Shown here: positions 1,140 through 7,079 of the stretch, in pieces
Layout: every line of letters starts with the position of its first letter
Numbering within the stretch: position 1 is the stretch's first letter
Source of the DNA: Oscillospiraceae bacterium
GTDB lineage: Bacteria; Bacillota; Clostridia; Oscillospirales; Ruminococcaceae
Assembly (NCBI GenBank): GCA_018110855.1
Contig: JAGBFZ010000349.1
Coordinates: 1-15,105, forward strand
Direction: 5' to 3'
DNA: 15,105 nt
Position numbers and translations under genes: made by a program
Notes under the pieces: generated by a model
What the model was told of the DNA's origin: nothing
Database searches by the model: none
Seen by the model: the letters and a program-made list of their open reading frames with translations, nothing else

Positions 1140-1168
1140 TTGACTTTTGCTAAAGGGTGTGGTATATT
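1140..1168 (+). promoter_or_regulatory. Promoter of the long repeat-containing RNA
   Basis: TTGACT (1140-1145), exactly 17 nt, then TATATT (1163-1168). The predicted transcription start is near 1175. It is one of the best promoter matches in the window, although the nearest conventional start codon downstream is 1.6 kb away. Confidence 0.8.
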
Positions 1169-1250
1169 ATTATCAAGGAAAGGGAAACAACCAGAAAGTA
1201 AGCCGAAGGGCTGAAGGGGTTTCCGGTTCCCGAGAACAGCAGGCTTTCTG

Positions 1251-1301
1251 ATGAAAGTATTCTGCAAAATGTTTGGAAAGGAAGGCGAGTCCGATGGCTG
1301 A
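1251..1301 (+). CDS. Possible 16-residue peptide ORF
   Basis: ATG 1251 to TGA 1299-1301 encodes MKVFCKMFGKEGESDG. AGCAGG lies about 7 nt before the ATG. The end of this ORF is the first GGCGAGTCCGATGG box, and the next ORF starts inside it at 1294, overlapping by 8 nt. The same bases form part of a CTTTC-TGAT-GAAAG hairpin (1244-1257), so the ORF may be incidental. Confidence 0.2.
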   Translation: MKVFCKMFGKEGESDG

Positions 1302-1368
1302 CGTTACAGAGCAGCAGTTTTTACAGGGAATGTCAATAAGCGGCTCGTTTTTACGGAAGGGCTTTTGA
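1294..1368 (+). CDS. Possible 24-residue peptide ORF
   Basis: ATG 1294 follows an AAGGAAGG ribosome-site-like stretch with an 8-nt gap. The peptide starts MADVTEQQFLQGM and ends SFLRKGF at TGA 1366-1368. It is the longest ORF opened directly by one of the boxes. Its 3' half overlaps the 5' arm (1340-1348) of a long-range helix, so translation and folding would compete. Confidence 0.25.
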   Translation: MADVTEQQFLQGMSISGSFLRKGF

Positions 1369-1718
1369 GAAAAATCATGGGGAGTTTAAAGGCAGTACGG
1401 TTATAGCCGTCCACTCCGAATTATAAAACGATTGGTTTTTCAAAGTCTTAAAGGTCAAAAATGTTACGAGCCGCAATCATCACAGAGTGATATGCGGTAT
1501 TTTTATACTCTCTTTACTGTGACGGACATTCCCCGAGATTTTAGTGAAAGGGATAATTCCGATGGAGTAAAGGGATTTTTTTTCGGGCTTATATGACAGC
1601 TTGGGCAGGCGGCAATTAAGATATCGGCTCCGCAGTCCGCAGGTGTCGGGATGTTATTCCCCCGATCCGCAGTGACAATTATAATGCGGGTGCTTAAAAT
1701 TCGAAAGGGTTGATCGCT

Positions 1719-1751
1719 ATGAAAATGAGGTATTACCGCAGAATTTCGTAG
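1719..1751 (+). CDS. Possible 10-residue basic peptide ORF
   Basis: ATG 1719 to TAG 1749-1751 encodes MKMRYYRRIS, five of ten residues basic. AAAGGG (1704-1709) is 9 nt upstream, inside an ATTC-GAAA-GGGT hairpin. Equivalent positions in the later repeats also carry short ORFs, so this is one member of a series rather than a lone chance ORF. Confidence 0.25.
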   Translation: MKMRYYRRIS

Positions 1752-1840
1752 GATAGGAGTGAGTCCGACAGGTAAGTGATTTCACCGCAGATTGCCGAAA
1801 GGCAGCGGCAGGCTAAAATGATCCGAAGGGATTGATTAAA

Positions 1841-1876
1841 ATGATCACGAGAGGTTTTCACGATTTGAATATCTGA
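1841..1876 (+). CDS. Possible 11-residue peptide ORF (repeat unit 1)
   Basis: ATG 1841 to TGA 1874-1876 encodes MITRGFHDLNI. AAGGG lies 10 nt upstream. In this unit an upstream ATG (1818) opens a separate MIRRD ORF that stops at 1835; in unit 2 a one-base difference fuses the two frames. Confidence 0.22.
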   Translation: MITRGFHDLNI

Positions 1877-1951
1877 TTATCAAACCAAGGGAGTGAGTCC
1901 GACAGGTAAGTGATTTCACCGCGGATTGCCGAAAGGCAGCGGCAGGCTAAA

Positions 1952-2011
1952 ATGATCCGAAGGGATTTGATAAAATTTATCACGAGAGGTTTTCACGATC
2001 TGAATATTTGA
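1952..2011 (+). CDS. Possible 19-residue peptide ORF (repeat unit 2)
   Basis: ATG 1952 to TGA 2009-2011 encodes MIRRDLIKFITRGFHDLNI. It is the unit-2 equivalent of 1818-1876. One extra base in the GGATTTGAT segment joins MIRRD to ITRGFHDLNI and the internal ATG is lost. The ITRGFHDLNI end is unchanged although two third-position bases differ (GATCTG for GATTTG, ATT for ATC), both silent. Confidence 0.25.
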   Translation: MIRRDLIKFITRGFHDLNI

Positions 2012-2114
2012 ATATCAACTCAAGGAAGTGTGTCCGACAGGTAAGTGATTTTCACCGCAGATTGCCGAAAGGCAGCGGCAGGGTATTAAGTAAAGCTCGA
2101 AAGAGATGATTTAT

Positions 2115-2144
2115 ATGATGAGGACAGGCATTACCAAATACTAA
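2115..2144 (+). CDS. Possible 9-residue peptide ORF (repeat unit 3)
   Basis: ATG 2115 to TAA 2142-2144 encodes MMRTGITKY. AAAGAG lies about 9 nt upstream, on the CTC-GAAA-GAG hairpin. It occupies the same place in unit 3 as MITRGFHDLNI in unit 1. Confidence 0.22.
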   Translation: MMRTGITKY

Positions 2145-2151
2145 GCTTATA

Positions 2152-2413
2152 GGAGTGAGTCCCATGGCATGATATGTGCCTTATGTCCCGCGAGGACAGT
2201 TGTATAAAAAATCTGAGATATGGAGAGAGTCCGATGGAAAAGTAGGTTTTCTTCACCAAATCAAAATTATGTAGATCAGGAGTGTTTCCAATGGCATGAT
2301 CATATTGCCTCTGATACTTTAAATCTTACGATATGGAGATTGGTCCGATGGAAAGTTAAGCTATGATTTTTCTGTCAAAATTCTTAATGTCCGGAGTGAT
2401 TCCAATGGATTAA
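2152..2413 (+). repeat. 57-nt phased array of GGAG-N-TCC-RATGG boxes with microORFs
   Basis: Five boxes follow one another. The TCC positions 2230, 2287, 2344 and 2401 are exactly 57 nt apart; the first (2160) is 70 nt before them. Boxes alternate in type: units 1 and 3 read ATGGCATGA followed by a TGCC that pairs with GGCA, while units 2 and 4 read GTCCGATGGAAA followed by TTTTC and later TCAAAATT. The true period is therefore a 114-nt dimer. Each box has GGAG 8-9 nt before an ATG that opens a two- or three-codon ORF: MA (2164-2172), MEK (2234-2245), MA (2291-2299), MES (2348-2359), MD (2405-2413). An earlier box gives ME (1562-1570). Confidence 0.8.
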
Positions 2414-2447
2414 ACGGCGAATAAAGCCGGCTGACGATTGATTCGGC

Positions 2448-2516
2448 ATGAAAGTGCTTTATATAGATAGGCTTTTTAAGTACTGTACTACTGTAATTGA
2501 TATACGAAATGAGTGA
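2448..2516 (+). CDS. Possible 22-residue peptide ORF
   Basis: ATG 2448 to TGA 2514-2516; the peptide begins MKVLYIDRLFKYC and ends VIDIRNE. No ribosome site is visible before it. It ends next to a GAGTGATGAGG stretch that could serve the next small ORF at 2523. Weak candidate. Confidence 0.12.
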   Translation: MKVLYIDRLFKYCTTVIDIRNE

Positions 2517-2522
2517 TGAGGT

Positions 2523-2564
2523 ATGAAAATTATCACTGTACGCCGAATGAACGCTATGTTTTAA
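2523..2564 (+). CDS. Possible 13-residue peptide ORF
   Basis: ATG 2523 to TAA 2562-2564 encodes MKIITVRRMNAMF. TGAGG ends 1-2 nt before the ATG, too close for efficient use, although GAGTGATGAGG extends further upstream. It is the last of the peptide-sized ORFs before the final box (2571-2582) and the terminator. Confidence 0.2.
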   Translation: MKIITVRRMNAMF

Positions 2565-2614
2565 AATACAGGGAGTGAGTCCGCCTAACTATTTGAATTA
2601 AATATCGGTTATCG

Positions 2615-2647
2615 GGAGTCCTGCAGTGTTTTGCGGGACTCCTTTTT
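2615..2647 (+). terminator. Terminator of the long repeat RNA
   Basis: An 11-bp stem, GGAGTCCTGCA (2615-2625) with TGCGGGACTCC (2632-2642, one G-U pair), a 6-nt loop and then TTTTT. It ends the unit that begins near 1175. It could also work as an attenuator before the MATE gene, but that gene has a promoter-like sequence after it. Confidence 0.9.
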
Positions 2648-4134: not shown

Positions 4135-4148
4135 ATTGAAAAAAACAC

Positions 4149-4177
4149 TTGACAAATGAGAAAATGTGTGATACACT
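4149..4177 (+). promoter_or_regulatory. Promoter of the small leader unit before rtcB
   Basis: TTGACA (4149-4154), 17 nt, TACACT (4172-4177). It lies within an imperfect inverted repeat (ACTTGACAA at 4147-4155 and TTGTTATCAAGT at 4177-4188), which could be an operator. This is the only good promoter between the MATE gene and rtcB. Confidence 0.7.
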
Positions 4178-4234
4178 TGTTATCAAGTTCAATGGCTTAA
4201 AATTTTAATGAATTTATGAAAGGAGGCGGACGCC

Positions 4235-4321
4235 ATGACAAAAGCTAATTTTATAAACATAAAATATAATATATCGGATTTCAAACGGCTGAGTATGGAG
4301 ATTTGTCCGCTGTCTTTTTAA
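4235..4321 (+). CDS. Small peptide ORF (28 codons) in its own transcription unit before rtcB
   Basis: ATG 4235 follows a perfect AGGAGG (4221-4226) with an 8-nt gap, and the frame stops at TAA 4319-4321. The peptide starts MTKANFINIKYNISDFKR and ends SMEICPLSF. It is not recognisably related to a known family and has no signal peptide or membrane segment. A dedicated promoter (4149-4177) and terminator (4345-4376) flank it, so the unit makes a transcript of about 190 nt whether or not rtcB is read through. The last third of the ORF contains TATGGAGATTTGTCCGCTG (4294-4312), 17 of 19 bases identical to a box at 2332-2350 in the long repeat RNA. It may be a leader peptide, a functional micropeptide, or a coincidence within a structured RNA. 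Confidence 0.45.
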   Translation: MTKANFINIKYNISDFKRLSMEICPLSF

Positions 4322-4344
4322 GGTGTGCGGATAGATAAGCTTTG

Positions 4345-4376
4345 TGCGCTCCCGTTTATTCGGGGGCGCATTTTTT
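4345..4376 (+). terminator. Terminator/attenuator between the small ORF and rtcB
   Basis: TGCGCTCCCG (4345-4354) pairs with CGGGGGCGCA (4361-4370) over 10 bp with one G-U pair, a 6-nt loop, then TTTTTT. rtcB starts 33 nt later with no complete promoter in between, so this hairpin is well placed to act as an attenuator. Confidence 0.9.
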
Positions 4377-4408
4377 ATTGACATGACGTATTTTGAAAGG
4401 AAAACATT

Positions 4409-7003: not shown

Positions 7004-7079
7004 TGGAGCTGATAACCGGATTTGAACCGGTGACCTCATCCTTACCAAGGATGTGCTCTACCAACTGAGCTATATCAGC
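7004..7079 (-). tRNA. tRNA-Thr (anticodon GGU)
   Basis: On the minus strand the acceptor arm GCTGATA pairs perfectly with TATCAGC, followed by discriminator T and an encoded CCA. The D-arm is AGCTCAGTTGGTAGAGC, the anticodon stem CATCC/GGATG encloses loop TTGGTAA (anticodon GGT, reading ACC and ACU), and the T-arm is CCGGTTCAAATCCGG. At 76 nt it is a full-length, normal tRNA with its own promoter at 7116-7144. Confidence 0.97.

Follow-up and report, generated by a model that had tools for sequence, protein, structure and literature searches.

The DNA analysed here, a stretch of 15,105 nucleotides from an Oscillospiraceae bacterium that we refer to as the window, carries at positions 1140-2643 of the forward strand a unit that runs from promoter to terminator and holds no ordinary protein gene. 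The promoter (1140-1168) joins the -35 hexamer TTGACT (1140-1145) to the -10 hexamer TATATT (1163-1168) across a 17-nt spacer, matches 10 of 12 consensus positions and is TG-extended, with TG preceding the second hexamer. The scanner also finds promoter-like sites by chance, giving eight in 1000-2800 where shuffled sequences give 5.2 (sd 2.2), and the site at 1140 is credited because a like block, read by eye, stands at the same place in relatives. An intrinsic terminator with a 13-pair stem and a T-run (2614-2643) is the one candidate found in this region (shuffles 1.1, sd 1.2). Divergently upstream, on the reverse strand, lie a DUF1292 gene (PF06949; 668-970) and a 6S RNA (RF00013; 367-567), and a MATE gene lies downstream.

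All features of the unit are on the forward strand. The first SD box, GAAGGCGAGTCC (1281-1292), contains CGAG-U-CC, able to pair with a GGCTCG at 1342-1347, and precedes a leader micro-ORF of 24 codons, MADVTEQQFLQGMSISGSFLRKGF (1294-1368); leader frames have 17-28 codons in 36 translated loci. After a hairpin, GGAGUUUAAAGG...CCACUCC (1380-1418), comes a box with the start-stop minigene ME (1550-1570; peptides are given here without their stops), conserved in all four aligned near relatives. The micro-ORF MKMRYYRRIS (1719-1751) is followed by a start-less box, GGAGTGAGTCC (1756-1766), and the first copy of a module hairpin (1785-1808). The micro-ORF MITRGFHDLNI (1841-1876), a second GGAGTGAGTCC box (1890-1900) and hairpin copy 2 (1919-1942) come next, and then a second ITRGFHDLNI copy (1979-2011), a start-less box GAAGTGTGTCC (2025-2035) and hairpin copy 3 (2055-2078). 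Beyond the micro-ORF MMRTGITKY (2115-2144) stands a row of boxes with minigenes: MA (2152-2172), MEK (2222-2245), a second MA (2279-2299), MES (2335-2359) and MD (2393-2413). The unit closes with the micro-ORF MKIITVRRMNAMF (2523-2564), a last, start-less box followed by GCC (2572-2582), and the terminator.

Eleven intact micro-ORFs were selected in the unit, one of 24 codons, four of 9-13 and six of 2-3. MEK and MES have SDs weaker than the -7 kcal/mol threshold of the site list and were retained on the strength of their boxes, and four listed sites were excluded, namely two nested starts and two overlapping frames (12 and 8 codons). The second ITRGFHDLNI copy would make a twelfth frame, but no ATG immediately precedes it here. 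The repeats comprise a module of ~134 nt, present three times, and box modules spaced 57-70 nt apart; Tandem Repeats Finder listed neither. An earlier sequence-only reading had described a promoter-to-terminator unit without an ordinary gene, bounded by TTGACT-17-TATATT and a terminator with a T-run, and containing eleven copies of one box and tandem repeats. These elements were all recovered (11 box anchors; frames of 24 and 2-13 codons), with the terminator stem, given there as 11 bp, measuring 13 pairs.

That reading had also found no large bacterial RNA family that the unit fits by signature, and the Rfam search agrees. At the gathering threshold the window yielded the 6S RNA and a tRNA (7007-7079, reverse strand, typed as tRNA-Thr), with no family matched in 1000-2800, and 41 further loci yielded 6S RNA and tRNAs alone; at E up to 10, the window unit drew just four weak matches (E 6.2-8.2), all to eukaryotic families. 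The 'several strong helices' of the same reading stand in part. Two hairpin types show two-sided changes among relatives: the leader-proximal hairpin (4 of 6 pairs changed on both sides, 95.2% of cells paired) and the module hairpin (3 of 8 pairs, 100% paired in 12 distinct rows, from which copies misfitting the short form had been dropped). The helix between the first box and GGCTCG is nearly invariant, with a two-sided change at one pair in one sequence. The unit as a whole, on the other hand, folds like its dinucleotide shuffles (z -1.6; parts -1.0, -0.6 and +0.1), and coding-sequence controls gave z of -1.6 and +0.3 in the same test.

Of the 20 genus genomes, 17 proved on reading of the matches to carry a unit, and relatives also turned up in other genera of the order; none was found in the genus genomes G007, G012 and G017, which are 80, 85 and 91% complete. 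The DNA search gave matches in 16 of 61 genomes (the window's own among them), which belong to two genera; its match in G019 (L035) was judged a non-member, and the true copy of that genome came from a pattern built on the HDLN peptide motif. This pattern matched 14 of the 20 genus genomes, the match G002:C21 being taken as chance. Named genomes with the motif are assemblies labelled as uncultured Oscillospiraceae, Ruminococcus and Clostridia, and several of them derive from rumen or gut samples. A family-wide pattern matched 22 of 396 genomes, against seven for the reversed-pattern control. Seven of the 22 belong to the genus itself, and 12 of the other 15 were taken as real: 11 on reading, including L113, a contig end with DUF1292 adjoining, and G231 by scan and alignment. 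The remaining three (G126, G326, G344) were taken as chance because the scan showed no additional box or minigene; L113, L119, L120 and L122 likewise show none by scan and were accepted on reading and on their DUF1292 neighbour. Covariance model R1 picked up 12 of 297 order genomes and R2, at E up to 0.05, 35 of 393 genomes of the class, 25 of them outside the order; members found by these models include some in family f24 and, more weakly, f13. A motif scan of seven of the 25 R2 loci outside the order (L148, L150, L151, L152, L155, L156, L157) found no second box-like site, and the two that were read, L148 and L150, are located at protein genes. Prevalence by sequence models is an underestimate, since the array carriers G106 and G154 match neither R1 nor R2. 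A viral origin was considered and set aside: the 16-base box occurs in 22 stretches of viral contigs with one exact match each, and when up to 3 mismatches were allowed, one of these, L087, gave a pair of box-like sites on the same strand, separated by 5.5 kb, both results being read as chance.

Far-diverged units share a common order: the promoter, a leader frame with the box GCGAGTCCnATGG and the motif GYGGCTCG, a hairpin, a stretch in which micro-ORFs of 9-14 codons alternate irregularly with boxes that have no start, then start-stop minigenes, and finally a last start-less box and the terminator, with some parts lacking in several members. The minimal form, L178 from another family, spans ~260 nt, with boxes, a pair of 3-codon minigenes and a single frame of 15 codons. 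Two variants of the arrangement were seen. Two tandem units lie ~2 kb apart in G003:C11 (L101/L036), the upstream one short (~0.65 kb), and the f13 loci L138, L139 and L146 have a leader-like element and a promoter with no DUF1292 adjoining, the element in L138 being preceded by two start-stop boxes.

The genomic position recurs. Divergent DUF1292 lies upstream in 32 of 47 oriented sequences, and the other 15 comprise two 3' halves, two non-members (L035, L105), the three f13 loci and eight genus loci from seven genomes in which the unit is sited elsewhere (L031, L034, L036, L037, L101-L104). DUF1292 itself was detected in 44 of 44 genomes of the order, and 30 loci were fetched from that anchor, a sample chosen without using the box. 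An array adjoined DUF1292 in 3/3 loci of f1, which include the window, and 2/2 of f24, which include G059, both of these found earlier, and in 0/25 of the others, four of which are shortened by contig ends; scoring was by automatic scan, and three arrays and three f13 loci were read. 6S RNA is divergent upstream in 16 of 42 sources at the gathering threshold, with orientation taken from coordinates and many fetched stretches ending before its position, and three more copies fall below the threshold. The 6S RNA of the window scores a little above the cut-off (52.7 against 46.4 bits), and several 6S copies of the clade lie near or below it.

Start sites are concentrated on the transcribed strand. 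Across 21 units (24,092 bases), 215 SD+ATG sites lie on the forward strand and 11 on the reverse strand, compared with 69.0 (sd 7.6, maximum 87) in shuffles, and the frames that follow are short, with 34% of at most 4 codons (21% in shuffles) and 5% of more than 30 (19%). The pattern CCnATG, which was picked after the units had been read, occurs 123 times on the transcribed strand and 14 times on the opposite one in 23 units. For 78 of the 123 sites the frame is no longer than 4 codons (45 of 2, 29 of 3, 3 of 4 and 1 of 1) and ends in TAA (35), TGA (31) or TAG (12), and 26 of the 123 sites have no stop within 15 codons, a number in which leader frames are not separated out. Predicted binding to the 16S tail has a median of -12.3 kcal/mol for the boxes and -11.6 for nearby ordinary genes (78 sites and 18 genes; windows of 16 and 18 nt). 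The boxes therefore do not look unusually strong as sinks, and the idea of unusually strong SDs finds no support in these energies. Boxes of the strict form GRRGTGAGWCC stand without ATG in 70 cases and with one in 17, and 48 of the 70 have a micro-ORF stop at most 45 nt upstream, at a median of 8 nt; both counts include redundant loci, and the second is given without a control. Some start-less boxes in several loci have GUCC-NNNN-GGAC, a possible 4-bp hairpin, together with ACAGGUAAG.

The sites are also regularly spaced. The commonest box-to-box distance is 50-59 nt (35 of 152 cases), with further peaks near 110-139 and 170-179 nt, and many of the longer gaps contain a micro-ORF start. Taken alone, boxes are 45-75 nt apart in 57 of 152 spacings (random 22.5, sd 4.2) and closer than 40 nt in 4 (random 38.2, minimum 23). 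With micro-ORF starts added, 136 of 222 spacings measure 45-85 nt, where random placement gives 48.4 (sd 6.0), and 6 are shorter than 40 nt, where it gives 71.4 (sd 5.9). Any start lying 25 nt or less from a box had been dropped, which cannot create the gap between 25 and 40 nt. Tandem duplication, which the random control leaves out, accounts for some of this regularity, such as the 57-57-57 series of the window, and regular spacing is present in different loci, for example L124, L103 and L104. The number of sites per unit reaches 19 (L026). A ribosome occupies 34-38 nt of mRNA (PMC5972666), so neighbouring sites could be occupied simultaneously. Comparison of the units shows a conserved layout, a strand-specific excess of SD+ATG sites, short frames, a pitch and a recurring locus.

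Between the two classes proposed by the sequence-only reading, a large RNA or a polycistronic micro-ORF message, the message has strong comparative support: starts and stops of frames persist as the sequences diverge, start-stop minigenes turn up again in many genera, and sites keep a pitch of 50-75 nt. A large structured RNA as proposed there is not supported, with neither an Rfam match nor a global folding signal, although two local hairpins covary. As to what such a message does, we favour, at a probability of about 45%, a ribosome-loading array that would work through initiation and termination themselves. An independently transcribed RNA would offer ribosomes a series of loading sites. 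Each box would serve as an SD element (GGAG or GGUG, a few nucleotides, then UCC) for the 3' end of 16S rRNA to bind, and a 30S subunit could be seated about every 50-75 nt. Most seated subunits would initiate and reach a stop after 2-14 codons; where a start-less box lies a few nucleotides downstream of that stop, it may retain the subunit released there or capture it again. The selected trait would be repeated ribosome binding, initiation and termination, by which the RNA could read out or tie up initiation-competent ribosomes, and for most sites the peptide would not be what is selected. Translation events are favoured as the function because the start-stop layout persists even though the products of the shortest frames vary widely (MA, MDS, MY, ME, MQ, MK and others). 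The SD+ATG excess, the short CCnATG frames, the spacing, the stops close upstream of start-less boxes and the minimal form L178 also speak for the array. Transcription, 16S pairing, ribosome occupancy and a role as sink or gauge are all inferred.

A more specific form of this reading is offered tentatively, and with some doubt. The unit may be an RNA gene of its own, in many cases sharing its locus with 6S RNA, whose minigenes and start-less SD boxes would seat up to ~19 ribosomes at a pitch of 50-75 nt. It would serve as a sink, a reservoir or a gauge for ribosomes engaged in initiation, a translational counterpart of 6S RNA. If ribosomes do engage in this way, the output of the gene would be a pattern of translation events, neither a protein nor a folded RNA; bacteria would have a new means of sensing or buffering ribosomes, and selection could act on frames of 2-8 codons. 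Frames of this size fall below the 30-nt floor of one catalogue (PMC11364881).

The main rival holds that the peptides matter, the unit being an operon for very short signal or regulator peptides (basic ones of 9-14 residues, together with di- and tripeptides), and we regard this as a possible, though doubtful, explanation. Peptide classes recur across genera, for example the basic M[KI]xRGFHDLN[IL], and the HDLN class has a pN/pS of 0.52, with pN below pS in 872 of 936 pairs. This suggests that some peptides are selected, which favours the product and speaks against the loading array. Leader frames, however, give a pN/pS of only 0.80, pN being the lower value in 453 of 627 pairs. In both cases the pairs are non-independent, some of the frames are nested, and there is no neutral control. 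Retention of starts and stops among near relatives speaks for the loading array. In the seven near-relative loci, which come from five genomes, 9 of the 11 window micro-ORFs retain both the start and the in-frame stop where they could be aligned, some stops being exchanged for other stop codons. The exceptions are the second MA, whose stop is lost in all three aligned relatives, and MD, for which both rows end in gaps; one MEK row also terminates in a gap. Substitutions at codon positions 1, 2 and 3 number 30, 28 and 42 of 253 each, a modest third-position excess in keeping with peptide coding. Weighing against a peptide function are the variable products of the minigenes and the leader frames of, for example, L113, L119, L120 and L122, which are shifted against the conserved RNA motif; nor would such an operon need start-less boxes or a pitch.

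A structured regulatory RNA, in which boxes are binding sites for RNA or protein and the frames are by-products, appears unlikely. The covarying hairpins agree with it, as do the retention of GYGGCTCG where the leader frame changes and the excess of strict boxes without ATG. The base before CC also partly tracks the SD triplet (GGA with U 38 times and with A once; GGU with U 16 and with A 7 times), but a simple GGA-UCC hairpin at each box would be partial at best, because GGA and GGU both go mostly with UCC. Such an RNA is at odds with the absent global folding signal, the strand-specific SD+ATG excess and the 78 of 123 CCnATG frames of at most 4 codons.

Three other readings are very unlikely: that the unit is a leader or attenuator of the downstream gene, that it is what decay has left of a protein gene, or that the gene lies on the opposite strand. 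The MATE gene of the window could be the target of an attenuator, but the unit has its own terminator and the gene that follows is not fixed, being MATE in the window and L021 and other frames in L023, L025, L026 and L028. The sequence-only reading had itself named decay of long ORFs that are intact in homologues as a refutation, along with a significant Rfam hit. No such hit appeared, and no intact long forward frame was seen in relatives, the longest forward stop-free stretch in 33 units being 107 codons. Stop-free stretches of at least 60 codons are more frequent on the reverse strand of these units (97, the longest of 145 codons) than on the forward strand (26), and some of the former resemble each other between relatives beyond the close group. 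Few long forward stretches are expected from a stop-rich row of micro-ORFs, and the reverse ones are not read as genes because that strand has just 11 SD+ATG sites in 21 units. A CsrB-like sponge titrating CsrA through repeated GGA, suggested by the many GGA boxes and by a CsrA gene (PF02599) in the window's own genome, is rejected as wholly improbable, as CsrA was found in 10 of the 20 genus genomes and not in the unit carriers G003, G008, G013 and G014, which are 93-100% complete.

To our knowledge, the unit belongs to no known family, and among the openly licensed matches listed in a literature search there was no description of such an arrangement. A likeness to the favoured ribosome-loading array is found in the bar minigenes of phage lambda, which act via peptidyl-tRNA drop-off. 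These too combine an SD with frames of two to a few codons that engage ribosomes, a combination found here at the 78 short CCnATG sites; bar minigenes are isolated elements of a phage, whereas here up to 19 sites are gathered in one chromosomal unit (L026). 6S RNA, the recurring divergent neighbour, is a decoy for RNA polymerase, in contrast to a unit that would be directed at the ribosome. Leader-peptide attenuators such as mgtCBR similarly bring short frames and hairpins together in one RNA, but act in cis on the next gene (PMC3641672), unlike a unit with its own terminator and varying neighbours. The AUG-stop of Arabidopsis NIP5;1 likewise places a stop immediately after a start and acts through the ribosome, and differs in being a cis element of a eukaryotic mRNA (PMC11915504). 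ROOL, whose name refers to its rumen origin, GOLLD and OLE are also long units without a protein gene (PMC12286853); the present unit differs from them in having start-stop frames and neither an Rfam match nor a global folding signal.

A second small unit was observed in the window at 4147-4378, before RtcB. It has a promoter-like TTGACA, a frame of 28 codons with an SD (4235-4321) and, by eye, a GC hairpin with a T-run after the frame. It may encode a leader peptide or stand as a small gene of its own.
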